From: Chromatiaceae bacterium
GTDB taxonomy: Bacteria; Pseudomonadota; Gammaproteobacteria; Chromatiales; Chromatiaceae
Assembly: GCA_022340805.1 (NCBI GenBank)
Contig: JAJDNF010000033.1
Location: 62,001 to 126,000, forward strand
DNA length: 64,000 nucleotides
Direction: 5' to 3'
Shown: one piece after another, positions 2,379 through 28,569 of the stretch
Layout: each line of letters starts with the position of its first letter
Position numbering within the stretch: the first letter of the stretch is position 1
Made by a program: the position numbers and the translations under genes
Notes under the pieces: model-generated
What the model was told of the DNA's origin: nothing
What the model saw: only the letters and a program-made list of their open reading frames with translations
Database searches by the model: none

Positions 2379-2876
2379 TCACCAGGGCATGAAGGCATTC
2401 ATGAACGACATCGGTCTGCCTACACTGTAGCTGAGCCGCCCCATATCCGCCTGCATATTCTGCGTCGCGCGCCCCATGGTGTGCGTAGCATGGGTCATCG
2501 ACTGAATCGCACCGTCCATCGAATCGAGGTTGGCCAGCATCGGCTCCAGCGTGGCCACCTTACGGTCGATCGAATCCATGGTCACGGTCATCGCGCGAAT
2601 GTTGGCGGTGAGCTGGCCCATGTTCTCCGACACGTTCTGCATATTGCCCGCGAGCGTCGTCATGTTGGTGTCGACACTGATCGCCAGGTAGTGCACATCC
2701 TTGGCCAGGTTATAGATAAGGTAAAAGCCATAAGCGGCAAGAATGATGAACGCGAATAGGGAAGGATAAACGATTAATTCCCATCGACGCGCACTGGATT
2801 CGAAAACCTCTGACAGTCTTGCGTATTCCACGTCGGTGTCGATGACGCTGTCGGCGACTTCGTTGGCGTTGCTCAC
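2379..2876 (-). CDS. Single-TM coiled-coil membrane protein, hypothetical
   Basis: One hydrophobic segment (LIVYPSLFAFIILAAYGFYLIY) then heptad-like Met/Asn-rich region. Confidence 0.7.
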   Translation of the reverse strand: MSNANEVADSVIDTDVEYARLSEVFESSARRWELIVYPSLFAFIILAAYGFYLIYNLAKDVHYLAISVDTNMTTLAGNMQNVSENMGQLTANIRAMTVTMDSIDRKVATLEPMLANLDSMDGAIQSMTHATHTMGRATQNMQADMGRLSYSVGRPMSFMNAFMPW

Positions 2877-3010: not shown

Positions 3011-3748
3011 TCAGGGTCTCAGTTGATCGGCCCGAAGGTCACCATCAGCCTGAAGAATATCAATGACTTCGAGAAGCTTCTTACCCTCCCCCGCAGCCTT
3101 CAGTCGGACGCCCGCCTCGAAATAGGCATCCAGGGCCTGGGTCGGCTTACCCATCGACCGATAGAGATTTCCCAGCTCGCCAAATGCGTCGGCGTCTGCC
3201 GGATAGGCGCTGATCAGGATCATGTAGGCGGCCTCGGCGGCCTCGAAGTCACCGTTCCAGAACGCCCGTCGGGCCTGCTGCACAAGATCGTCGCGCGGTC
3301 TGGCCGACGGATCTGAGCGCGCCTCGTCCGAGGCCGGACGGAACGACCGATCCACCTCATCCGTACCTGGCGTCACGCCAAGGTGAGCCAAACGCGAGCC
3401 CTCATAGAGCGGCAGGCTGCCACCGATCAACCTGGGTGCCTTGTAGGCTGGCTCCGGTGCCTGCACGGCGACCGCCCCAGCCCGCGTCGCAGCCGGCTTA
3501 TGCGGCACCGCCACCGAGGCCGGATTCTTCAGCTCGGGCTGCTCCGGCGCGCTGCCTGGACCCCTCGTGACCACGTTGTCTGCGGGAACCTGCATGCTGT
3601 GCGTTGCCACCGGGGGCGCCTGTCGGACAGGCCCCAGCTCGATCACGCCAAACACCAGTAGTCCGGCCAACACGAACCCGGTCAGACTGAACAAGACCAG
3701 GTGGCTGGTCAGCCAGCCCAAGACGATCGAAACCAGGCTGATGGGCAT
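3011..3748 (-). CDS. TPR-containing membrane-anchored protein
   Basis: N-terminal hydrophobic segments, C-terminal TPR-like helices (AEAAYMILISAYPADADAFGELGNLYRSMGKPTQALDAYFEA); ATG at 3748 close to parA stop. Confidence 0.7.
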   Translation of the reverse strand: MPISLVSIVLGWLTSHLVLFSLTGFVLAGLLVFGVIELGPVRQAPPVATHSMQVPADNVVTRGPGSAPEQPELKNPASVAVPHKPAATRAGAVAVQAPEPAYKAPRLIGGSLPLYEGSRLAHLGVTPGTDEVDRSFRPASDEARSDPSARPRDDLVQQARRAFWNGDFEAAEAAYMILISAYPADADAFGELGNLYRSMGKPTQALDAYFEAGVRLKAAGEGKKLLEVIDILQADGDLRADQLRP

Positions 3749-3756
3749 AAGAAGGC

Positions 3757-4392
3757 TCAGGCCAATATATCGGCGTACAGCACGGCGGCCAACGCGTTCC
3801 ACTCGGCCGCGCCCTTACCGCGCGGCTCCTGCTCGAACACCGTCAGGCCCTCACTAAACGAACGCCTGTATACCGTGCGCTGCGCAAGGCGGGGTTTCAG
3901 GTAGCGGATACCCGGCAGAGACACCAGCGCGGCCGCGGCCTCGTCAGACTCGCGGACCGCCCGGTGGGTATCACCCCGGTTGATGAATCCGAGCACCTCG
4001 GGCCTGTCTTTGCCGACAATCGAATCGACGAAACGCAGGAACCGCTGCGTGGACCAGATATCGGCCTGACTCGGCGGCACCGGCACCAGGACGCGGTCCG
4101 CAATCGACACCGCGAGCCTGAGATTGTCCATCGAGGCCGTGCCGACATCGATCAGGACCTCCTCGCGTTTGAGCAGGCCGCGACGGTCTTGCATGCGCGA
4201 GGCGTCCAACAGCTCAACCATCGGCTGAAAACCCTCCTCGCGCCTGACGTCGAGCACATCGGTCAGGGTAGCCTGGGGGTCTGCATCGATCACGGCGACA
4301 TCGCGCTCGGCCATCGCCAGCCAGATCGCGAGGTTGAAGGTAACTGTGCTCTTTCCTGACCCGCCCTTGAGGGTTCCGATTACCGTGATCAT
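3757..4392 (-). CDS. ParA/MinD-family ATPase
   Basis: Deviant Walker A KGGSGKST and VIDADPQ motif. Confidence 0.85.
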   Translation of the reverse strand: MITVIGTLKGGSGKSTVTFNLAIWLAMAERDVAVIDADPQATLTDVLDVRREEGFQPMVELLDASRMQDRRGLLKREEVLIDVGTASMDNLRLAVSIADRVLVPVPPSQADIWSTQRFLRFVDSIVGKDRPEVLGFINRGDTHRAVRESDEAAAALVSLPGIRYLKPRLAQRTVYRRSFSEGLTVFEQEPRGKGAAEWNALAAVLYADILA

Positions 4393-4410: not shown

Positions 4411-5385
4411 TCAGCTGCCGCTACACCAACTGCAGGAATCCGCGAATCCGGAGTCCTCATAGGTTGTCACCCAGCCAGGCAGTTTGTGCTGGGTGGAATT
4501 GCCACCAACCTCGCCGCGCCACGCAACGCGTTCGTCGCCGCGCTGGCTGCGCCCATAAGCGGCCGGGCGGAACGCGACATCGGCGCGAAGGGTACTGCGC
4601 TGCGCGCCGGACACCGGCCGCCACTGAAAGCGATTCAGACCTGCCGGCGCAGGATTGAGTCCAGCCATTCGAGAACCAGGCACCTGCCACGCGGGCGCAC
4701 TGACGGTTCGGTATCCGTACTGTTGGGGAGCAGTATAGACGGGCGCCTGGTACGCGAACCGCGGGGCCGCCTGGGGAGGTCGGTCGGCCGGACGCCAACT
4801 GCCATATGCCGGCGGATAGCCAGCCGTACCCGGCCGGAATTCAGCCGTTCGGGGTGCCCCCGCAACCGGATACCGCGGCCACCCCTGAACGCCGGGCTGC
4901 GCCGTCCACGGCTGCTCCGCAGGACGCCAGGGGAGCTGGCGCACGAACACAGGCATTTGCTGCTGCCACGCCTGAGCCATGTCGCTGAATGGCTGAACCC
5001 AACCCGGCGCCGGGTACATCATAGCGGCAGGCATCTGCTGCGCCTGGTAGGACTGATAGGGCCGGTAATGCGGATAAGGCTGATAAGCATCCTGCACTCC
5101 GCGCATCGCCACCGGATAGTCACCGGTGTGCGGCGCAGCAGCCAGCTGCGGCGTGCGCTGCCGGGACTGCTGATAGGTCACCGGATACGCATATGGATTT
5201 GGTGCCGACCAGGGACGAAACGCCGGCACATTGGCGACCCGCTGCACGGGCGCGCCGGATGCCGAAACGAAACCGGACGCGGGCCGCCACTGCTGACCGA
5301 AGGCATACGCTTCGCTGCCCGGCAGGATCGCACTGGAGAAAACGACAATTCCACCAAAAACAATTATCTGTCTTGCAAACTTCAT
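4411..5385 (-). CDS. Secreted Pro/Gln/Tyr-rich protein with repeated [FW]RP motifs
   Basis: Signal peptide-like N-terminus; QWRPASG, AFRPWSA, PWRPAEQ, EFRPGTA, SWRPADR, QWRPVSG, AFRPAAY; RBS aggaag upstream. Confidence 0.65.
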   Translation of the reverse strand: MKFARQIIVFGGIVVFSSAILPGSEAYAFGQQWRPASGFVSASGAPVQRVANVPAFRPWSAPNPYAYPVTYQQSRQRTPQLAAAPHTGDYPVAMRGVQDAYQPYPHYRPYQSYQAQQMPAAMMYPAPGWVQPFSDMAQAWQQQMPVFVRQLPWRPAEQPWTAQPGVQGWPRYPVAGAPRTAEFRPGTAGYPPAYGSWRPADRPPQAAPRFAYQAPVYTAPQQYGYRTVSAPAWQVPGSRMAGLNPAPAGLNRFQWRPVSGAQRSTLRADVAFRPAAYGRSQRGDERVAWRGEVGGNSTQHKLPGWVTTYEDSGFADSCSWCSGS

Positions 5386-5485: not shown

Positions 5486-6085
5486 TCACCACGTCGGCCA
5501 GTACCCGCCATATACCGCGGGCGGCGCGGTCCCGGTGCCGGGATACGGCATGTAGCCGGATGCATAAACCTGTCGATACCCGGGCGTGGCGCGCTGCATC
5601 TCCTCGTACGCCGGCTTGCGTCGGTGTGGCGCCGGGCGGAACTGGGATTGTAACTCTGATTGTCCGGGCTCCGATGTGCCGCCCGGTGGGTTCCCAACAG
5701 GCCCGTACAGGGACTGGCGGTCATCCGGTCTAAACCTCACGCCGAGGTGCTGCGCCGGCCTTGACGGGCCGACACTGCGCATCCCAGCTGCTGCCGGGGT
5801 TGCGCGACCGTACCTCGACTCCGACCCCAACACGGCCACGGTTCGGGGCCTGACTGCCGATGTCCTCGACCTTGCCTGGCCGGCGACCTGCTGGGGCCGC
5901 CAGCGTCCAACAGTGACCGCCGCCTCGCGGCGGTTCCACGGTCGAAACTGCGGTCGCTTTGACGGGGACGAATAGGCGGACCAGCTCGGATAGGCGGCTT
6001 GCGCCGCCGAAAGGGGCGCGATTCCCAGCGAGGCCAGGTTCGCAAGCCCCAGCACCACACTGATGGAAATCACCCGCGCTAGCAA
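5486..6085 (-). CDS. Secreted [FW]RP-motif protein, paralogue 1
   Basis: Probable TTG start 6085 after aggagg; signal peptide ending SAAQA; GVRFRPDDRQSLYGP and ELQSQFRP blocks shared with next gene. Confidence 0.65.
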   Translation of the reverse strand: MLARVISISVVLGLANLASLGIAPLSAAQAAYPSWSAYSSPSKRPQFRPWNRREAAVTVGRWRPQQVAGQARSRTSAVRPRTVAVLGSESRYGRATPAAAGMRSVGPSRPAQHLGVRFRPDDRQSLYGPVGNPPGGTSEPGQSELQSQFRPAPHRRKPAYEEMQRATPGYRQVYASGYMPYPGTGTAPPAVYGGYWPTW

Positions 6086-6144: not shown

Positions 6145-6192
6145 CCACAATATATACCCTGCGCAATAGCTGTCAACCACAATATCTTGTGT
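6145..6192 (-). promoter_or_regulatory. Candidate NrdR-box pair (minus strand) with adjacent DnaA-box-like 9-mers
   Basis: CCACAATATATACCCT (6145-6160) and CCACAATATCTTGTGT (6177-6192), 32-bp spacing; part of block identical to nrdA promoter. Confidence 0.7.
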
Positions 6193-6457
6193 ATAAAAGC
6201 TGTGGAAAACCGTGTAGAAGCTGTGCGGGACCTGTGCAAGCCCCGTCCCTCAAGGCCATTTTTTTCAATCAATTCCGCAGCTTGTATGAATACCAAACGA
6301 CTGAAACAAGATGTGAATCCGCGCGCACCCCGCCCGGCCCAAGGCCGGCAGGGCCCCATCGCCGGCCCGACCACGGTATCGCGGAATCTTGACTTGTAGG
6401 ATCGTGAAGACGAAGCCATCCGAATATGGCCTGCCGGCTAAGGATGGCGGATATTCC

Positions 6458-7051
6458 TCACCACTCGGGCCAATGCCGCCCATAGCCCGGCAGCGGGGGT
6501 GGAGCCATCATCGGGTAAGGCAAGATAGGCGGTGGCAGCGATGGCGCCGACGATGCATCCTCGGCGCCATACAAGTCCTCATAGGTGCGCTTAGCCCTTT
6601 TTTCGGTCGGTCGGAACTGCGACTGTAACTCTAGCGACTGGGGATCGGTTGGCGTGCCACTGGTGGGCATACTGGGCTGGCCATAGGGCGATTCGCGCTC
6701 GTCCGGGCGGAAACGCAGGCCAAGTTCCTGGCCTCGTGTAACCGGTACGGCCTTGCGGGCCCCTGCACGGCCGCTCGGCGACACCGGTCCCCGGCCCTTG
6801 CGGTCGGCCAATACCCCAGGGGCCCGGCGCGGCTGCCAGGAGACCCACGCCGGCCGGTACGATCTGCGGCCGGACAGGGCAGACATCGGCGCGGCCTGGC
6901 GCGTGATTGCGAGGACCGGGCGAAACCGATGCGCGGACGCGACACCGTCAGGCGAACGACTCGCTTGGGCGGCAGACCAAGGCAAAACCGCGACATTGGC
7001 CAGGGTCACAAGCCCCAACCCAACAACGCTGTAAAGCAGCCGCGCGACCAA
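6458..7051 (-). CDS. Secreted [FW]RP-motif protein, paralogue 2
   Basis: Probable TTG start 7051; signal peptide ending SAAQA; GLRFRPDERESPYGQ and ELQSQFRP blocks; ends GYGRHWPEW (paralogue 1 ends YGGYWPTW). Confidence 0.65.
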   Translation of the reverse strand: MVARLLYSVVGLGLVTLANVAVLPWSAAQASRSPDGVASAHRFRPVLAITRQAAPMSALSGRRSYRPAWVSWQPRRAPGVLADRKGRGPVSPSGRAGARKAVPVTRGQELGLRFRPDERESPYGQPSMPTSGTPTDPQSLELQSQFRPTEKRAKRTYEDLYGAEDASSAPSLPPPILPYPMMAPPPLPGYGRHWPEW

Positions 7052-7138: not shown

Positions 7139-10100
7139 TTAGTTTAGACCGTCTCCACTTGGTTTTTCCAAACTTTTCAACTGGATACCCCGTCTACCTG
7201 AAGCCTTTTTTCGGCTCCGCGCGGCAGCGGGCTTGGCCGACGCGCCGGCCCTTACCACCGGCCTGTTCGAACCGGCGGCTTCTTTCGCCGCGGGTGGGCT
7301 CGCTTCGGTCGCACCTTTCCTGGCCGACGTCTCGTGCGCAGTCGTCTTCTTGGCAACACCCGCCCGGGCGCCCGGGCGGCGCGCGGCGGACGCGCCCTGC
7401 GCCCTGGTTTTGCTCCCAGAGGCCTTCTTCACGGCCGCCTTTTTCGGCACCGACTTGGCTACCCGGGGCGATTCGGCGTGATGTTTCCTGGCGACCCGCG
7501 GTGCCGATTCCTGTGCAGGGGCCTGGGCCACGTCCGCAGTCATGTTGGCCAGTGTCTTGCTGGAGGCATGCCCGGCCCCCTGCGCTCGCGGTGTCGCCTC
7601 GGCGGTGCCGGCCGGAGGCACTGCCACCGCATGCGACCCGGTCCGGGCGGCTTTCTTCACACCGCGTTTCGACTTGAACGGCCTGGCGGCCCAGCCGACC
7701 AGCACCGCTGCAGCGCCAATGACAGTGAACATCACACTGGCAAAACCACTCCAGGCGCGCACCCAGAGCGGGTCACCAACCCGCGGACCACCACCCTGAG
7801 GACCGTTCGGGCCACCGTCCGGTTCATCACGCTTGGAAAACTTGCGGCACTTGGTGCTGCCGGCAACGGCGCACAGCGAGTCGGCAGCCGCGACGCAGCC
7901 CAGCGGGATGACCACCAGCGTCAACAGCGTCGAAACCAACACGCCGGAGGCCAGCGAGATGGCCATACCCTGAAAGATCGGGTCAAAAAAGATCACCGAC
8001 GAACCAGCCACCAGCGCCAGCGCGGTGATCAGGATCGGGCGTGTACGCGTTTTACATGCGGTGATGACCGCGTCGACGACCGAGTCCCCCTCCTGGATTC
8101 GGTGCACCGAGAAGTCCACCAGCAGGATCGAGTTGCGCACGATGATGCCGGCCAGTGCGATCCAGCCGATCATCGAGGTCGCGGTGAACTCGCCGCCCCA
8201 ACCCGCCTGGAAAAACAGCGTGTGCGCCGGAATGATGCCGAGCAGGGTCAGCGGGATAGGCGCCATGATCAGCGCGGGTATCCGGAAGTTGCCGAATTCC
8301 CAGACGACCAGGATGTAGATCAGGACCAGCGCAGCGCCGAACGCGATACCCATGTCACGGAAGGTTTCGTAAGTCACCGTCCACTCGCCGGCCCATTCGA
8401 TCCCGGAGGTGCTGTCGTCGGGTGGAGGACCGGTATAAAAGATGTGTTCGCAAAGCTGAGCGCCATCGGGGGTGCGACAACCCAGTTCATGGAGCTTGTC
8501 TTCGACCTGCAGCATGCCGTAGATCGGCGCCGCCAGGTGACCACCCACGTCGGCCACGACGTACTCGACCGGACGCAGGTCCTTGTTGTAGATGATGTCG
8601 GACTCGGTGCGCCGCTCGAACGTGCCGAGCTCACGCAGTGGCACGGTGGCGCCCGAGTTGGGGGACAGCACCAGGATGTCGCCAAGCCGGTTGATCTGCG
8701 AACGCTCGGCGAGCGGCACCTGGATCACGATATTGATCGGTTCATGGCCGGCGCGCTGCTTGACGTCGCCGAGCACGAATCCGCCCAGCGCCATGGACAA
8801 CTCGCGGTTGATGTCCTCCACCGAGATACCGCGCCGCTGCGCCTTCTCCTGATCGACCTCGAAATGCCAGTAGTCGTAGGGTTCGCGCATGTAGTTGTCG
8901 ACGTCACGCAGGCTCTCGGTCTGGGCAAAGATTTCGGTCAGGTCGTGCGCCACCTGGCGCCGCGTATCCGGATCGGGGCCATGCACCTCGGCGACCACCG
9001 ACTGCAGCACCGGCGGTCCCGGCGGCATCTCGACGACCGCGAAGCGAGCGCGGCTACCCTCGACCAGCGCCTTGACCTGCTCACGCGCATCGACCGCAAT
9101 CTCGTGACTGGAGCGCGAGCGCTCGCCCTTGTCGAGCAGCTGGACCTGCACCTCGGCCTGCCACGAGGACTGGCGCAGATAGTAGTGACGGACCATGCCG
9201 TTGAAATCGAACGGGCGCGCAGTCCCAACATAGATCTGTGCCGCCGTCACTTCGGGCATACGCCGCAGGCGCTCGGCAATCATGTGCGCCATGTTGCCGG
9301 TGTCAGCCAGCGCGGTGCCCTCCGGCATATCCAGGACGACCGAGAATTCCGGCTTGTTGTCCAGCGGCAGCATCTTCACCGCCACCCACTTGAAGTAGAA
9401 GAACGAGCACATCACCAGCAGCGCGCCCCACATGGCAAGCTTGAACAGCCGCGCCTTGCTCCGGTCGAGGATCATCGGCATCAGGACGCGCCGGTAGAGA
9501 CGCTCCAGCCACTCGGCCTCCTTGAGTTCGCGCTTTTCGGCGCTCTCTAGGTAATGCATGGTCGGGCGGAACATGCCGTGGATCGCAAACCAGGGCGTGA
9601 ACACAAACGCCGCAAACAGCGATATGCCCATCGCCACCGAGCCCAGTACCGGAATCGGCAACATGTAGGGGCCCATCATGCCGGTAACGGCCCCCATTGG
9701 CAGCAGCGCGCCTATCACGGTAAGCGTCGCCAGGATGGTCGGGTTGCCCACTTCGCGCACCGCGTCAACCGCGGTGGCCATGTCGGTCTTGCCTTCCTCC
9801 AACCAGCGCCGGTAGATGTTCTCGACCACGACGATCGCATCGTCGACCAGGATGCCGATCGAGAAGATCAGCGCGAACAGCGACACCCTGTCGATCGTGA
9901 AGTCGAGCAGCATGGCGCACAGGATCGTGAACAGCAGCACCACCGGCACGACGAACAGGACCACGAACGCCGGCTTGAGCGCGCGGAACGCGATCCACAC
10001 CAGCAGGAATACGAACATGGTCGCGACGAACAGCTTGAAGATCAGTTCGTTGACCTTTTCCTCGGCAGTCTTGCCGTAGTTGCGCGTAATGCTGACGTGG

Positions 10101-11176
10101 ACGTCGTTGGGGATCATCCGACCGCGCAGGTTTTCGACGCGCTGGATGATCGCCTCGGCGACCTTGACCCCGTTGGTGCCCTTCTTTTTCGCGACCGCGA
10201 TCGTGACGGCCGGCACACTGACCGCCTGATCGGGGTCAGCGGCAGCCGCCCCGGTGTAATAGGCGACCGTCTGCGAGGCATCCTCAGGCCCCTGCCGAAC
10301 GTCGGCCACGTCGTGCACGTAGACCGGCACGCCGTTGTGGCTGCCGACCTGCAGCCGATTGATATCGTCGACCGTTTCGAGGAAGGCGCCGGAGACCACC
10401 ATCATGTGCGAACCGCCGGATTCGACACCACCCATCTGCTGCTCGACATTGGACCCGGTAATCGCCTGCGCGACCTGGGCCAGGCTCAGACCAAAACCGG
10501 CCAGACGCTCCGGGTAGACCTCGACGGTGACCTGTTCGGCTCGCCCTCCGACAACGAAGCTGTCGCCGGTCTCGGGGATCTCCTTGATATGCTGCATGAC
10601 CGACTGCGCCAGGCGGCGCAACTGCGAGTCGTCGACATCCGGGACCCCGTCACCGTTGTAGTCTTTCTCCGACCACAGCGTGAGCGTCACCACCGGGACG
10701 TCGTCGATGCCCTTCGCCTTCACCAGCGGTGGCTTGACCCCCGGAGGAATCCTGTCCATGTTGGACTGGAGCTTGTCATTGACCTTGACCAGCGACTTCT
10801 CCATCTCCTCGCCGACGTCGAACTGGATGGTCACGATGCCCATGCCGCGCTGACTGGCGGAATAGACGTGATCCACACCCTGGATCTCGTACATGATGCG
10901 TTCCAGCGGCTGCACCGCCAGCGACGCCACCTGCTCGGGATCGGCCCCGGGGTACTGCACGATCAGGTCGATCATCGGCACCGAGATCTGCGGATCCTCC
11001 TGGCGCGGCGTTGCCAACAGGCCGAGGATTCCCAACATCAGCATCGCCAGGTACAGCAGCGGCGACAGCGGCGAGTTGATAAAAAAGCGCGCCATGTTCC
11101 CGGCGAGGCCGAGATGGGCCGTCGGGTGGGTGCCTGACTCCGAGCCGTCGGAGGGACGCTGTTCGAGATCGCTCAT
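7139..11176 (-). CDS. RND-family efflux permease with Lys/Ala-rich histone-H1-like C-terminal tail
   Basis: AcrB/HAE1-like sequence through TM repeats; C-terminal ~190 aa rich in K/A/P/R. Confidence 0.85.
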   Translation of the reverse strand: MSDLEQRPSDGSESGTHPTAHLGLAGNMARFFINSPLSPLLYLAMLMLGILGLLATPRQEDPQISVPMIDLIVQYPGADPEQVASLAVQPLERIMYEIQGVDHVYSASQRGMGIVTIQFDVGEEMEKSLVKVNDKLQSNMDRIPPGVKPPLVKAKGIDDVPVVTLTLWSEKDYNGDGVPDVDDSQLRRLAQSVMQHIKEIPETGDSFVVGGRAEQVTVEVYPERLAGFGLSLAQVAQAITGSNVEQQMGGVESGGSHMMVVSGAFLETVDDINRLQVGSHNGVPVYVHDVADVRQGPEDASQTVAYYTGAAAADPDQAVSVPAVTIAVAKKKGTNGVKVAEAIIQRVENLRGRMIPNDVHVSITRNYGKTAEEKVNELIFKLFVATMFVFLLVWIAFRALKPAFVVLFVVPVVLLFTILCAMLLDFTIDRVSLFALIFSIGILVDDAIVVVENIYRRWLEEGKTDMATAVDAVREVGNPTILATLTVIGALLPMGAVTGMMGPYMLPIPVLGSVAMGISLFAAFVFTPWFAIHGMFRPTMHYLESAEKRELKEAEWLERLYRRVLMPMILDRSKARLFKLAMWGALLVMCSFFYFKWVAVKMLPLDNKPEFSVVLDMPEGTALADTGNMAHMIAERLRRMPEVTAAQIYVGTARPFDFNGMVRHYYLRQSSWQAEVQVQLLDKGERSRSSHEIAVDAREQVKALVEGSRARFAVVEMPPGPPVLQSVVAEVHGPDPDTRRQVAHDLTEIFAQTESLRDVDNYMREPYDYWHFEVDQEKAQRRGISVEDINRELSMALGGFVLGDVKQRAGHEPINIVIQVPLAERSQINRLGDILVLSPNSGATVPLRELGTFERRTESDIIYNKDLRPVEYVVADVGGHLAAPIYGMLQVEDKLHELGCRTPDGAQLCEHIFYTGPPPDDSTSGIEWAGEWTVTYETFRDMGIAFGAALVLIYILVVWEFGNFRIPALIMAPIPLTLLGIIPAHTLFFQAGWGGEFTATSMIGWIALAGIIVRNSILLVDFSVHRIQEGDSVVDAVITACKTRTRPILITALALVAGSSVIFFDPIFQGMAISLASGVLVSTLLTLVVIPLGCVAAADSLCAVAGSTKCRKFSKRDEPDGGPNGPQGGGPRVGDPLWVRAWSGFASVMFTVIGAAAVLVGWAARPFKSKRGVKKAARTGSHAVAVPPAGTAEATPRAQGAGHASSKTLANMTADVAQAPAQESAPRVARKHHAESPRVAKSVPKKAAVKKASGSKTRAQGASAARRPGARAGVAKKTTAHETSARKGATEASPPAAKEAAGSNRPVVRAGASAKPAAARSRKKASGRRGIQLKSLEKPSGDGLN

Positions 11177-11247: not shown

Positions 11248-12390
11248 TTACTGGCCGCGACTCCGGGTCATGATGTCAGGACCGGGGTTCGGGTAGACGC
11301 GGTCGCCCGGGGCGATACCGGAGAGCACCATGGTCATGCCATTGTCCAGTCGTTTGCCCTGGCGGATCATGCGCAATTCGGGCTCGCCCTGTTCGTTCTG
11401 AACGTAAACGACCGGCAGGCTGCCGCGATAGCGGATGGCCGTACTCGGGATCACCGGCTGCTGACCCTTCGTGGGTGCGGTGGCATCCGGGATCAGCACC
11501 TTGGCGTACATGCCCGGTTTCGATACGCCCTGAGGGATGTCAAACTTGACCTTCACGGTATGGCGCTGCACGTCGGCCATCGGAAACACCTGCGCGACGC
11601 GCACCGCGACCGGCTCCGGGTGATCGTCGAAGGTGGCCGCATTCTGCAGCACGCTCATCGGCTGCAAGCCCCTTGCGAGGCTCGCCGGCACATCCACCTC
11701 GATCTGCAGCCAGGTGACGTCGGCAAACTTCAACATCGGCAGCCCGGGCTGGACGGTATCCCCTTCCTCGACGTATTTCTCGACGATCACACCGTCGAAC
11801 GGGGCCAGGCTCTTGGCATCGCGCAGTTTCGCGTCGATCGCGCGAATCTCGGACTGCGCCTGCAGCATCGCGCTGCGTGCCTGCTCCATCCGCGTACTCG
11901 AGGCATAAAGGTCCGCGCTGCGCTCGGCCCCGCGGTCACGCTGACCCATGAAACCCTCAGCCGGGCGGGTGAACATCTGGTCGAACAGGTTGGGTATACC
12001 CATACCGCCAGGGGCATTCGCCGACTGCGGCGACCACAACTCGCGCGAATACTGCACGCCCGCATTGCGCAGCTGCGCGTCGGCCGACGCCAACTGGGCA
12101 TAGGCGGCACTGCGCTTGGCCAGCAGCTCGTCCTCTTCGAGGGCGACCAGCGTGGTCCCGGTCTCGAAGGTCTCACCTTCGATACCGGCGATGAACTTCA
12201 CCCGGCCGGGCAGCTGGGCGGCCAGGGTCACCTCCTTGAACGGCACCACACTGCCACTGACCACCACGGTCGGAACCTCGGAGGACTCCTTGACGACAAA
12301 GATGTCTTCGAACTCACGGTCCCGCGCAAAGGTCGGCGCAGATAGCGCTACTGCGGCGGCGGTGACGGTGGCAATCAGAATCTTGTGCAT
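11248..12390 (-). CDS. HlyD-family periplasmic adaptor of RND system
   Basis: Signal peptide, lipoyl-like VVVSGSVVPFKEVTLAAQLPGRV, coiled-coil; immediately upstream of RND gene. Confidence 0.85.
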   Translation of the reverse strand: MHKILIATVTAAAVALSAPTFARDREFEDIFVVKESSEVPTVVVSGSVVPFKEVTLAAQLPGRVKFIAGIEGETFETGTTLVALEEDELLAKRSAAYAQLASADAQLRNAGVQYSRELWSPQSANAPGGMGIPNLFDQMFTRPAEGFMGQRDRGAERSADLYASSTRMEQARSAMLQAQSEIRAIDAKLRDAKSLAPFDGVIVEKYVEEGDTVQPGLPMLKFADVTWLQIEVDVPASLARGLQPMSVLQNAATFDDHPEPVAVRVAQVFPMADVQRHTVKVKFDIPQGVSKPGMYAKVLIPDATAPTKGQQPVIPSTAIRYRGSLPVVYVQNEQGEPELRMIRQGKRLDNGMTMVLSGIAPGDRVYPNPGPDIMTRSRGQ

Positions 12391-22772: not shown

Positions 22773-22869
22773 TTACCCACAAAAGACACACAGATTTCAC
22801 ACCGTTTTCCACAGCTTTTATACACAAGATATTGTGGTTGACACCTCGGAGACAGCGTATATATTGTGT
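22773..22869 (+). promoter_or_regulatory. nrdA control region: DnaA-box-like 9-mers and NrdR-box pair
   Basis: TTACCCACA 22773-22781, TTTTCCACA 22805-22813, TTATACACA 22818-22826; ACACAAGATATTGTGG 22822-22837 and AGCGTATATATTGTGT 22854-22869 (32 bp apart). Confidence 0.8.
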
Positions 22870-22966: not shown

Positions 22967-25879
22967 ATGGCAACCGAAGTCACGCAATCCAAAGGTGCTG
23001 CGGACAGCATCGCCGTCCCCCCAAACGACACCGAAACAGTCAGTGCCGGCCCCGAGATAAGCGCCCATGCGCCGGGCGGCATGAAGGTGATACGCCGCAA
23101 CGGCAAGGTCACCAATTTCGATGCCAACAAGATTGCTGTGGCGATGACCAAGGCCTTTCTGGCCGTCGAGGGCGGCAGCGCCGCCGCATCGCGACGTGTT
23201 CACGATCTGGTCCAGTCGCTTACCGAACAGCTGAGCGAGGCACTGTTCCGGCGCAACCCGGCCGGCGGCACCATCCATATCGAAGACATCCAGGACCAGG
23301 TTGAGCTGTCGCTGATGCGTTCCGGCGAGCACAAGGTCGCGCGCGCCTACGTGCTGTATCGCGAGGAACAGAAACGCAGGCGTGCCGAAGAGGCATCAAA
23401 GAAGCAGACCAGCAAGACGGAAAACCTGGTCAACGTCGTTCAGGCGGACGGCACCACCCGCCCGCTCGACGTGGATCGCCTGCGCAAACTGGTCAACGAG
23501 GCATGCGCGGGACTGGAGGCTGTGACATCCGAGTCGATCCTCGACGACACCTGCCGCAACCTGTTCGACGGCGTCAAGGAACGCGACGTGTCGCAGGCGC
23601 TGGTGATGAGCGCCCGCACGCTGATCGAGCAGGAGCCGAACTACTCGTACGCCGCTGCGCGCCTGCTTATGGACATGCTGCGCCGCGAGGCCCTGGGTTT
23701 CCTGCGCATGGACACCGGGGTCGCCACACAGAAGGAGATGGGCGAGCGTTACAGCGAGTACTTCACCTGCTACATAAAGTGCGGCGCCGACCTCGAACTG
23801 CTCGACAAGCGCCTGACCCAGTACGACCTGGCGCGCCTTGGCGCGGCGCTGAATCCGGAACGTGACCTGCAGTTCACCTACCTGGGCCTGCAGACCCTCT
23901 ACGACCGCTACTTCATTCATTCGAAGGGCACGCGTTTCGAGCTGCCCCAGGCATTCTTCATGCGCGTCGCGATGGGCCTGGCGATCAATGAGATCGACCG
24001 TGAGGGCCGTGCGATCGAGTTCTACAACCTGCTGTCGAGCTTCGACTTCATGAGCTCAACCCCGACCCTGTTCAACTCCGGCACACTGCGCCCGCAGCTG
24101 TCGAGCTGCTACCTGACCACGGTCGCCGACGACCTCGACGGCATCTACAGCGCCATCAAAGACAATGCCCTGTTGTCCAAGTTCGCCGGTGGCCTGGGCA
24201 ACGACTGGACCCGCGTGCGTGGCATGGGCGCCCATATCAAGGGCACCAACGGCAAATCACAGGGGGTGGTGCCGTTCCTCAAGGTCGCCAATGACACCGC
24301 CGTCGCGGTCAACCAGGGCGGCAAGCGCAAGGGCGCCGTGTGCGCCTACCTCGAGACCTGGCATATCGACGTCGAGGAATTCCTCGACCTGCGCAAGAAC
24401 ACCGGTGACGACCGCCGCCGCACACACGACATGAACACCGCGAACTGGATTCCGGATCTGTTCATGAAGCGCGTCGCCGAAGACGCGAACTGGACCCTGT
24501 TCTCGCCCGACGAGGCAACCGACCTGCACGATCTGACCGGCAGGGCGTTCGAACAGGCCTACATCCGTTACGAAGAAAAGGCGGCGCGTGGCGAAATGAA
24601 CGTCGCCAAGACGCTCAAGGCCAACGACCTGTGGCGCAAGATGCTCGGCATGCTGTTCGAGACCGGCCATCCGTGGATCACGTTCAAGGACCCGTGCAAT
24701 ATTCGTTACACCAACCAGCATGTTGGGGTGGTTCACAGTTCCAACCTGTGCACCGAGATTACCCTGCATACCAACGACAACGAGATCGCGGTGTGCAACC
24801 TGGGTTCGGTCAACCTGGCCGCGCATGTCGACGAAAACGGCCTGGACATGGCGAAACTGCAGAACACCGTCAGCACCGCGATGCGCATGCTCGACAACGT
24901 AATCGAATACAACTATTACAGCGTGCCGCAGGCGCGCAACTCCAACCTGCGCCACCGCCCGGTGGGGCTGGGCATCATGGGTTTCCAGGATGCGCTGTAC
25001 AAGATCCGCCTGCCCTATGCGAGCCAGGAGGCGGTCGAGTTTGCCGACCGCTCGATGGAAGCGGTCTCCTACTACTCGATCAAGTCCTCGACCGATCTGG
25101 CCGAGGAGCGCGGACGCTATCACAGCTTCGAGGGGTCATTGTGGAGCCAGGGCATCCTGCCGCTCGATTCACTCGCCCGCCTGGCCGAGGAACGCGGCAC
25201 GCACCTGCAGGTCGATGACAGCAGCACGCTCGACTGGGACAGCCTGCGTGAGCGAGTGAAAGGCGTCGGCATGCGCAACTCCAACACCATGGCGATTGCA
25301 CCGACCGCGACCATCTCGAATATCTGCGGCGTCAGCCAATCCATTGAGCCGACTTACCAGAACCTGTTCGTTAAATCGAACCTGTCCGGTGAGTTCACCG
25401 TGGTCAACCCGTACCTGGTACGCGACCTCAAGGCGCTCGACCTGTGGGATCCGGTGATGGTCAACGACCTCAAATACTACGACGGCTCGGTGCAGCCGAT
25501 CAGCCGTATTCCGGATGACCTCAAGGCACTGTATGCCTCGGCGTTCGAGATCGACGCGCGCTGGCTGGTCGAGGCCGGAAGCCGTCGTCAGAAATGGATC
25601 GACCAGGCGCAGAGTCTCAACCTGTACATGTCGGAGCCATCCGGCAAGAAACTGGACAACCTGTACAAGCTGGCCTGGGTACGCGGTCTGAAAACTACCT
25701 ATTACCTGCGTTCGATGGGTGCGACACACGTCGAGAAGTCAACCATGGACGACACCAGCCGGTCGAACAAACTGAGTGCGGTCGGCGGCAGCTATCGCGC
25801 GCTTTCCGTCGCTGATGCAGACAGCGCCGCGCCCAAGGCCTGCAGCATCCTCGACCCGGATTGTGAGGCCTGCCAGTAA
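22967..25879 (+). CDS. nrdA: Class I ribonucleotide reductase alpha subunit, two N-terminal ATP-cone-like regions
   Basis: NLCTEITL…, SSCYLTTVADDLDGIY, NSNTMAIAPTATISNI; repeated ATP-cone-like N-terminal segments. Confidence 0.95.
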   Translation: MATEVTQSKGAADSIAVPPNDTETVSAGPEISAHAPGGMKVIRRNGKVTNFDANKIAVAMTKAFLAVEGGSAAASRRVHDLVQSLTEQLSEALFRRNPAGGTIHIEDIQDQVELSLMRSGEHKVARAYVLYREEQKRRRAEEASKKQTSKTENLVNVVQADGTTRPLDVDRLRKLVNEACAGLEAVTSESILDDTCRNLFDGVKERDVSQALVMSARTLIEQEPNYSYAAARLLMDMLRREALGFLRMDTGVATQKEMGERYSEYFTCYIKCGADLELLDKRLTQYDLARLGAALNPERDLQFTYLGLQTLYDRYFIHSKGTRFELPQAFFMRVAMGLAINEIDREGRAIEFYNLLSSFDFMSSTPTLFNSGTLRPQLSSCYLTTVADDLDGIYSAIKDNALLSKFAGGLGNDWTRVRGMGAHIKGTNGKSQGVVPFLKVANDTAVAVNQGGKRKGAVCAYLETWHIDVEEFLDLRKNTGDDRRRTHDMNTANWIPDLFMKRVAEDANWTLFSPDEATDLHDLTGRAFEQAYIRYEEKAARGEMNVAKTLKANDLWRKMLGMLFETGHPWITFKDPCNIRYTNQHVGVVHSSNLCTEITLHTNDNEIAVCNLGSVNLAAHVDENGLDMAKLQNTVSTAMRMLDNVIEYNYYSVPQARNSNLRHRPVGLGIMGFQDALYKIRLPYASQEAVEFADRSMEAVSYYSIKSSTDLAEERGRYHSFEGSLWSQGILPLDSLARLAEERGTHLQVDDSSTLDWDSLRERVKGVGMRNSNTMAIAPTATISNICGVSQSIEPTYQNLFVKSNLSGEFTVVNPYLVRDLKALDLWDPVMVNDLKYYDGSVQPISRIPDDLKALYASAFEIDARWLVEAGSRRQKWIDQAQSLNLYMSEPSGKKLDNLYKLAWVRGLKTTYYLRSMGATHVEKSTMDDTSRSNKLSAVGGSYRALSVADADSAAPKACSILDPDCEACQ

Positions 25880-25912: not shown

Positions 25913-27043
25913 ATGTTGAACTGGGACGATCCACTCGCACCGATCAGTCAAGTGAGAAAGGCGCCTCCACCAGCCGGCCATGTGCCGGTCGAGGACGGCG
26001 TCGCCGAGCAACCGGCCGCCAAGGCGCTCCCCGAGGCCGACCTGCGCCCGGTCAACCCGGATGACAAGCGAGTCATCAACGGCATGACCGACATCAACCA
26101 GCTGGCACCGTTCAAGTACCCCTGGGCCTGGGAATACTTCCTCAACGCCAACCGCAATCACTGGACGCCGCTGGATATCGGCATGGCGCAGGATGTGCAC
26201 GACTATCATCACAAGCTGACGCTGGAAGAGCGCCACGTGTACGAGAACGTGCTTTCCTACCTGACCACCTCCGACATCCTGGCCATGCGCAACATCGGCC
26301 TGGCGGTGATGGAGAAGATGTCCGCGCCGGAGCTGCAGATCTACCAGGCGCGCCAGGTCTACGAAGAGTCGCTGCACACCTGGACCTACCAGCACTGCAT
26401 CGAGACCATCGGCCTGAACCAGAGCGAGATCTACAACCGCTACCGCGTCGTGCCGGAGATCAACGGCAAGATCCAGATCGCCAATCGCCGCCTCAACTCG
26501 ATCCTGCGCGCCGATATCGATCTGCGCGATCGCGATGAATTGCAGAACTTCCTGATGGCCTACATCTTCTTCGCAGGTATCTTCGAAGGCTGCTGGTTCT
26601 ACAATGGATTCAGTCCGATCTTCGCGCTGCAACGCCGCGGCCTGATGAAAGGTACCGCGGAGCAGTTTCAATACATCATGCGCGACGAGGTGTTGCACGC
26701 CTCATTCGGCATCCGCGTCGCCAAGCAGATCATGCTGGAAGAGAACATCCGCCCCGACCCAAAGGCGATGAGCGAGATGTGGGCCGAATGTGAGGCCGCG
26801 GAACAGGCCTATGCGGGCTATATCCTGCGCGACCCGATCCTCGGCTACAGCAAAGAAGACCACGTCGGTCAGTATCGCTTCATCGCCAACCGGCGGGCAC
26901 GCAGCCTCGGCTTCGATGAACCCTACCCGGGTGCCGAGCCGACGCTGGCCTGGCTCGACGAGCAAGCCAATCTGCGCAAAGAGAAAAACTTTTTCGAGAC
27001 CCGCGTAACCGAATACCAGGCCGGCGGGCTCAGATGGGAATAA
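25913..27043 (+). CDS. nrdB: Ribonucleotide reductase beta subunit, paralogue 1
   Basis: EESLHTWTYQH, FEGCWFYNGF, MRDEVLHASFG, C-terminal RVTEYQAGGLRWE. Confidence 0.9.
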   Translation: MLNWDDPLAPISQVRKAPPPAGHVPVEDGVAEQPAAKALPEADLRPVNPDDKRVINGMTDINQLAPFKYPWAWEYFLNANRNHWTPLDIGMAQDVHDYHHKLTLEERHVYENVLSYLTTSDILAMRNIGLAVMEKMSAPELQIYQARQVYEESLHTWTYQHCIETIGLNQSEIYNRYRVVPEINGKIQIANRRLNSILRADIDLRDRDELQNFLMAYIFFAGIFEGCWFYNGFSPIFALQRRGLMKGTAEQFQYIMRDEVLHASFGIRVAKQIMLEENIRPDPKAMSEMWAECEAAEQAYAGYILRDPILGYSKEDHVGQYRFIANRRARSLGFDEPYPGAEPTLAWLDEQANLRKEKNFFETRVTEYQAGGLRWE

Positions 27044-27255: not shown

Positions 27256-28569
27256 ATGATGCTTAACTGGGACGATCCCTTGCAGCCCAGCAGGGATACC
27301 GCCACGGCGCGAGGCAGCAGGCCAGCAGGTATCGCGCGCGGTGGCGACTCGCTGCGCCTAGCACAGGCAAAGGCTGCCGGGCGTCATCCGCATGCCGGCG
27401 ACGGTCTGGTCGACACCGGCCTGCTCATGGCAACAGCCGGCGCCGCGCCAAGCGTCGACCCCGATCCACACCATATCGTGGAACCGCTCGCCGACTACCA
27501 GGCCTCGGCCGAGTCGGGCGCAACCGGGCTCGAATCCCTCGAGATGGGTGCGGGCCGCATCCGCGTCGACGATAAAAGGATCATCAACTGCCACGCCGAC
27601 CTCAACCAGCTCGTGCCATTCAAGTACGAGTGGGCATGGCAGAAGTACCTCGATGGCTGCGCCAACCACTGGATGCCGCAAGAGGTCAATATGAACGCCG
27701 ACATCCAATTATGGCGCGACCCGAACGGTTTGACCGATGACGAGCGCACCATCATCAAGCGCAACCTGGGATTTTTCTCGACCGCCGACTCGCTGGTTGC
27801 GAACAACCTGGTACTCGCAGTCTACCGCCACATCACCAACCCGGAATGCCGCCAGTACCTGCTGCGCCAGGCGTTCGAGGAGGCATTGCACACCCACGCC
27901 TACCAGTACGTGATCGAGTCGCTCGGCCTCGACGAGGGCGAGGTGTTCAACATGTACCGCGAAGTGCCGGCGGTCGCACGCAAGGCCGAATGGGCCCTGC
28001 CCTTCACCCGGCACCTGGCCGACCCGAACTTCCACACCGGCACGACCGAGAACGACCAGCAGCTGCTGCGCGAACTGGTGGCCTTCTATGTGATATTCGA
28101 GGGCATCTTCTTCTACGTCGGCTTCACCCAGATCCTGAGCATGGGCCGACGCAACAAGATGACCGGCACGGCCGAGCAGTTCCAGTACATCCTGCGCGAT
28201 GAATCGATGCACATGAACTTCGGTATCGACGTGATCAACCAGATAAAGCTCGAGAACCCGCAGCTGTGGACCGACGCATTCAAGGCCGAGATCGTACAGA
28301 TGATCCGTGACGCCATCGCCCTCGAGACCCAGTATGCCTACGACACCATGCCGCGCGGCATTCTCGGCCTTAACGCCCCGATGTTCGAGGAGTACCTGCA
28401 GTTCATTGCCAACCGGCGCTGTGCACAGATCGGCCTGCCGGAACAGTATCCAGGCGCGACCAACCCCTTTCCGTGGATGTCAGAAGTACTGGACCTCAAG
28501 AAGGAGAAAAATTTCTTCGAGACCCGGGTCACCGAATACCAGACTGGCGGTGCCCTGAACTGGGATTGA
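27256..28569 (+). CDS. nrdB: Ribonucleotide reductase beta subunit, paralogue 2
   Basis: [45 protein letters not shown]-terminal [14 protein letters not shown]. Confidence 0.95.

Follow-up and report, generated by a model that had tools for sequence, protein, structure and literature searches.

NrdR has been described as a ribonucleotide reductase-specific repressor, and in Escherichia coli nrdAB is controlled by NrdR-box pairs together with DnaA boxes. ATPases of the ParA/MinD type are described as positioning diverse cargos (PMC10241942). NrdR with dATP and ATP represses through paired boxes of 16 bp, which are separated by linkers of 15-16 bp and overlap the RNA polymerase site (PMC12176259), and linkers of 15-17 bp give efficient repression in vivo (PMC12051234). 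In Pseudomonas aeruginosa a target outside ribonucleotide reductase (RNR), namely topA, carries a single box, and no other promoter with putative boxes was reported there (PMC4409342). Regarding DnaA, the E. coli protein has a preference for two boxes separated by 2-3 bp, an arrangement that it binds at nrdA, where its effect is positive (PMC11317965). In the open-access literature we found no report of a full NrdR/DnaA promoter of the nrdA type ahead of a ParA cluster.

The stretch of DNA analysed here, called the window, comprises 64,000 nucleotides of a 3.49-Mb Chromatiaceae draft genome (~90% complete). It carries a 40-bp block, GTTTTCCACAGCTTTTATACACAAGATATTGTGGTTGACA, in two copies 16,593 bp apart, one ahead of nrdA and the other ahead of the FRP2 gene (Table 1). 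A preliminary description had reported the identity of the copies, the divergent orientation of the genes behind them, the unlikeness of the sequence outside the block and a second NrdR-like box at a 32-bp offset, and all of this holds: the copies are exact reverse complements, FRP2 and nrdA point apart, the flanks are at background (29/60 identical positions upstream, 6/14 in the spacer), and the second box is kept in both copies. The genome-wide search for the 40-mer, which that description had also proposed, returned exactly these two copies and not many; at up to 3 mismatches there was no further copy within the window, as in 100 shuffles, and none in the whole draft genome.

The block makes up one half of an nrdA-type promoter, the operator half, and consists of in-phase DnaA-like boxes, NrdR box 1 and, as its final six bases, a perfect -35 element, TTGACA. 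Toward each gene the order is the same: DnaA-like boxes, NrdR box 1, the -35 element, a 14-bp variable stretch, and NrdR box 2 lying over the -10 element TATATT. A consensus scan scored the two promoters alike (Table 1), and the near-invariant TATATATTGTG of the second box stands exactly 14 bp after TTGACA in both. The offset from box 1 to box 2 is 32 bp in all aligned promoters of the genus, which leaves a linker of 16 bp, and the predicted boxes overlap the -35/-10 region at FRP2 as well as at nrdA. In these respects the locus is like the NrdR regulon of E. coli (nrdAB, nrdHIEF and nrdDG) and P. aeruginosa, with paired 16-bp boxes and a 15-16-bp linker over the polymerase site (PMC12176259, PMC12051234); it differs in that a full box pair also stands at a non-RNR operon, whereas topA of P. 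aeruginosa has a single box (PMC4409342). By inspection against the pattern C.[AT].A[AT].[AT].G (PMC12051234), box 1 fits, and in box 2 the first C is replaced by G, at FRP2 and nrdA alike. The FRP2 promoter is followed by a short leader with a ribosome-binding site. At the same time, nrdR itself is encoded in the genome (TIGR00244, E 2.5e-61) and was found in 8/9 genomes of the genus; the one without it is a draft of 80% completeness.

Table 1. Coordinates of the promoter elements and genes in the window (positions counted from its first letter).
Feature	Position	Strand	Remarks
40-bp block, FRP2/ParA-operon copy	6171..6210	-	exact reverse complement of 22804-22843; 2 copies in this whole genome
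40-bp block, nrdA copy	22804..22843	+	same 2-copy genome count
In-phase DnaA-like boxes, FRP2 promoter	6188..6241	-	fixed alignment positions; enriched vs shuffles
In-phase DnaA-like boxes, nrdA promoter	22773..22826	+	enriched vs shuffles
NrdR box 1 ACACAAGATATTGTGG, FRP2 promoter	6177..6192	-	kept in all genus promoters
NrdR box 1 ACACAAGATATTGTGG, nrdA promoter	22822..22837	+	kept in all genus promoters
Sigma-70-like promoter TTGACA-16-TATATT, FRP2 operon	6149..6176	-	11/12 consensus matches
Sigma-70-like promoter TTGACA-16-TATATT, nrdA	22838..22865	+	11/12 consensus matches
NrdR box 2 (left half degenerate), FRP2 promoter	6145..6160	-	32 bp from box 1, over -10
NrdR box 2 (left half degenerate), nrdA promoter	22854..22869	+	32 bp from box 1, over -10
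MFP, periplasmic adaptor, same cluster	11248..12390	-	upstream of promoter
RND transporter, same cluster	7139..11176	-	upstream of promoter
FRP1, paralogue of FRP2	6458..7051	-	upstream of promoter
FRP2, small protein	5486..6085	-	signal-peptide-like N-terminus, three FRP motifs, TTG start after AGGAGG
FRP3, secreted-looking	4411..5385	-	three FRP motifs
ParA-type ATPase, ParF-like, KGGSGKS	3757..4392	-	Pfam CbiA 1.1e-14; plasmid ParF 4dzz 8e-12
TPR protein	3011..3802	-	overlaps end of ParA gene
Membrane + coiled-coil protein	2379..2876	-	highly conserved, 80-93% in genus
nrdA, class I ribonucleotide reductase large subunit	22967..25879	+	Pfam 2e-192
Two nrdB-type genes	25913-27043, 27256-28569	+	tandem after nrdA

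Concerning DnaA, the preliminary description had named two DnaA-box-like 9-mers overlapping a NrdR box. Both, TTTTCCACA and TTATACACA, are present in the block, and TTATACACA, the last of the array, overlaps NrdR box 1; the array, however, consists of about five boxes and not two. Counted from NrdR box 1 they lie at about -50, -39, -28, -18 and -5, share one strand and follow each other in fixed steps of 10-13 bp, mostly 11 bp, in agreement with the same-strand 2-3-bp gaps looked for in a DnaA-regulated promoter. Seven FRP promoters hold 17 DnaA-like boxes with at most one mismatch, against 2.5±1.6 in shuffles, and seven nrdA promoters of the genus hold 22 against 4.2±2.1. Perfect DnaA boxes vary among species, and some FRP promoters are without them. 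The closely spaced upstream boxes recall DnaA-regulated nrdA of E. coli with its double box TTATCCACA-aag-TTATGCACT (PMC11317965), whereas here about five weaker, in-phase boxes run into NrdR box 1, at the ParA operon as well as at nrdA.

On the left side of the window the genes follow in the order MFP-RND-FRP1, promoter, FRP2-FRP3-ParA-TPR-membrane coiled coil, and along the five genes behind the promoter the gaps are 100, 18, -46 and 134 bp, with no terminator-like site found in the FRP2-FRP3 stretch. FRP1-3 are secreted-looking, fast-evolving (about 30-45% identity between species), apparently low-complexity proteins which gave no match in Pfam or NCBIfam. Each contains three copies of the FRP tripeptide, a count reached in 0/2000 shuffles; the tripeptide is also present once in the TPR protein of the cluster and may be a shared binding motif. 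The ParA protein, 80-86% identical across the genus, has the deviant Walker A motif KGGxGK[ST] in the form KGGSGKS together with a ParA-family profile match, and it reaches 128 bits with the ParA partition equivalog NF041546, below the cut-off of 180. It resembles the cargo-positioning ParA/MinD systems (ParF, McdA, MinD) in this ATPase, whose nearest solved relative is plasmid ParF, and differs from them in being chromosomal and in its linkage to genes for an RND/MFP transporter, a TPR protein and a membrane coiled-coil protein. The core of the cluster (MFP-RND-ParA-membrane protein) is widespread in the family: the membrane protein was found in 128/148 family genomes, and RND and ParA adjoin its gene in most of the fetched loci. 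Records of the cluster include Thiocapsa, Halochromatium, Thiohalocapsa and Sedimenticola, and the genus of the window is represented only by metagenome bins assigned to Chromatiales or Gammaproteobacteria. On the nrdA side, the first nrdB-type gene (25913-27043) scores only 320 bits with the curated family, far below the 704 bits of the second.

Within the genus, sites were counted by strict pattern and profile searches of each genome. The promoter stands between two FRP-motif genes, ahead of FRP2-FRP3-ParA-TPR-membrane protein, in 7/9 genomes, and its two-box/-35/-10 layout is the same there and at nrdA wherever nrdA was found. In these searches the strong matches in each genome are essentially only the nrdA and FRP2 sites. 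Two genomes have the nrdA site only: in G006 the ParA operon is retained but both FRP2 and the promoter are missing, and in G007 neither the FRP genes nor the membrane protein is present. With search filters off, no promoter remnant was found in G006 and three other promoter-less loci. In G002 no nrdA was detectable, probably due to draft gaps, and G005 has a second, weaker site at a contig end which is probably its nrdA promoter.

Beyond the genus, the promoter recurs at the same place in two genomes of a sister genus, G165 (L189, Milos-ODIII6) and G174; there it stands after an FRP1-like gene and directly before the FRP3-like and ParA genes, FRP2 being absent. The presence of the promoter without FRP2 indicates that it serves the ParA operon, and FRP2 as the specific target is ruled out. 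Among 94 cluster loci searched, a strong match occurred only in six loci of the genus and in one of the sister genus (L189). In the tree of the cluster proteins the two genera group together, and the promoter-bearing pair stands apart from the promoter-less members of the sister genus, with a support for this pair of only 65%; one gain and two losses would be the simplest history of the promoter, though not a proven one. In a third genus (G062, L288, contig G062:C23; locus 2416-2498, minus strand) an nrdA-type promoter precedes the cluster, 85 nt upstream of its first gene, MFP; since this position in the cluster is a different one, a separate recruitment is likely.

How the two blocks of the window came to be identical can be explained in more than one way. 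A recent event in this strain, by which one of the inverted promoters took over about 40-45 bp of the other through copying or gene conversion, would agree with the 40/40 identity here as compared with 27-35/40 for the same pair in G001, G003, G004, G008 and G165 (27-38/40 over all other compared genomes). The chance of such identity is 10^-7.8 with the columns taken as independent, a figure that ignores the relatedness of the sequences. However, the 40-mer seems likely, from its matches elsewhere, to be close to the ancestral operator: it agrees at 39/40 positions with nrdA of the sister-genus genomes G174 and G175, at 38/40 with the ParA-operon promoter of G174 and with nrdA of G006, and at 37/40 with the FRP promoter of G008, and a 30-bp run is common to non-orthologous promoters of different species. 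If the 40-mer is near-ancestral, its retention in both copies suffices for the identity, and with near-identical 40-mers at nrdA and the ParA operon of the sister genus, old recruitment under strong constraint is to be preferred; the recent copy is thereby weakened and we regard it as unlikely.

Together with the anatomy, conservation and near-exclusivity of the sites and the presence of nrdR, all of which are observed, we consider it probable that the two blocks are operator halves of one promoter design, common to nrdA and the FRP2-FRP3-ParA-TPR-membrane-protein operon and predicted to be under NrdR/DnaA control. Points against this reading are the unlike spacers and upstream regions of nrdA and FRP2, the missing left C of box 2, though it is missing at nrdA to the same degree, the lack of perfect DnaA boxes in some FRP promoters, and the small number of strong non-nrdA sites elsewhere in the family. 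As DnaA titration sites are known in E. coli, the FRP copy might instead be a decoy that binds DnaA or NrdR incidentally and leaves the downstream operon unregulated, but this is quite improbable in view of the fixed -35/-10 geometry, the fixed place 5' of the operon in two genera, the short leader with its ribosome-binding site and the additional occurrence in front of this cluster in G062. An origin by chance or as a generic repeat has next to no standing: AT-rich palindromic boxes are indeed short, yet only two copies exist in the genome where none is expected, a count which rules out the generic repeat, and conservation across genera refutes chance.

For the shared promoter design, the following course may be proposed. 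The common ancestor of the window's genus and its sister genus would have gained an nrdA-type promoter behind FRP1, in front of the gene that follows; constraint would then have preserved it, apart from losses in some lineages. NrdR would bind the box pair, and DnaA on the upstream in-phase boxes would modulate promoter activity, probably upward, as it does at nrdA of E. coli. With the same NrdR/DnaA logic at both promoters, the ParA operon would be made together with ribonucleotide reductase when replication draws down dNTPs, so that co-expression with nrdAB in replicating cells is predicted. The preliminary description had supposed that a replication- or dNTP-linked promoter was copied or convergently retained to drive the FRP cluster; the core of this, an nrdA-type promoter that drives the FRP cluster as well, is well supported by conservation across the genus and the sister genus, whereas the promoter serves a five-gene ParA operon in which FRP2 is not an essential target, and old recruitment with retention takes precedence over a recent copy. 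The coupling is not essential, as the promoter is absent from the ParA operon of G006 and from most genera.

On these sequence comparisons we rate the ParA-operon promoter as a new, conserved, putative non-RNR branch of the NrdR/DnaA regulon, and they suggest that an envelope system of small secreted proteins and a ParA-type ATPase may be made in step with DNA replication. A full box pair with a DnaA-box array, kept at the ParA operon of two genera and in a third probably the product of a separate gain in front of the cluster, would be a concrete replication-linked switch on an envelope or positioning system, and the promoter offers a handle on the function of the MFP-RND-FRP-ParA-TPR cluster, which is uncharacterised and conserved across Chromatiaceae and Sedimenticola relatives. 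Only tentatively do we go further and propose that a dNTP- and replication-sensing nrdA-type promoter was recruited at least twice, at different positions, to this chromosomal ParA/RND/FRP envelope cluster, where it would couple the construction or positioning of an envelope structure to chromosome replication.

In the whole family a strong site was found in 117/213 genomes. Judged from their coordinates relative to nrdA matches, most sites appear to lie just ahead of nrdA, and strong non-nrdA sites elsewhere are few, though not zero. Among second sites checked individually, those of G008, G014, G022 and G144 lie ahead of unrelated genes. The third site of G008, at an unrelated place (L079 1473-1546, G008:C21), is followed by a short ORF (~50 codons) and a coiled-coil ORF of 295 aa, with a transposase-like gene nearby; a mobile element may be making use of the nrdA-type promoter of its host here. 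Strong NrdR/DnaA-like sites also precede an ORF of 489 aa that shows weak similarity to GGDEF (L290, G022:C17) and a 72-aa ORF resembling a small ribbon-helix-helix protein (L321, G014:C197). A second, diverged nrdB-like gene (334-357 aa, 25-33% identity to the second nrdB of the window) stands behind an nrdA-type promoter in L317 (G133:C247) and in L297 (G107:C180). What is more, the nrdA open frames of many relatives are ~1350-1440 aa long, and their match is interrupted around residue 444 or 596, a pattern suggestive of inteins.
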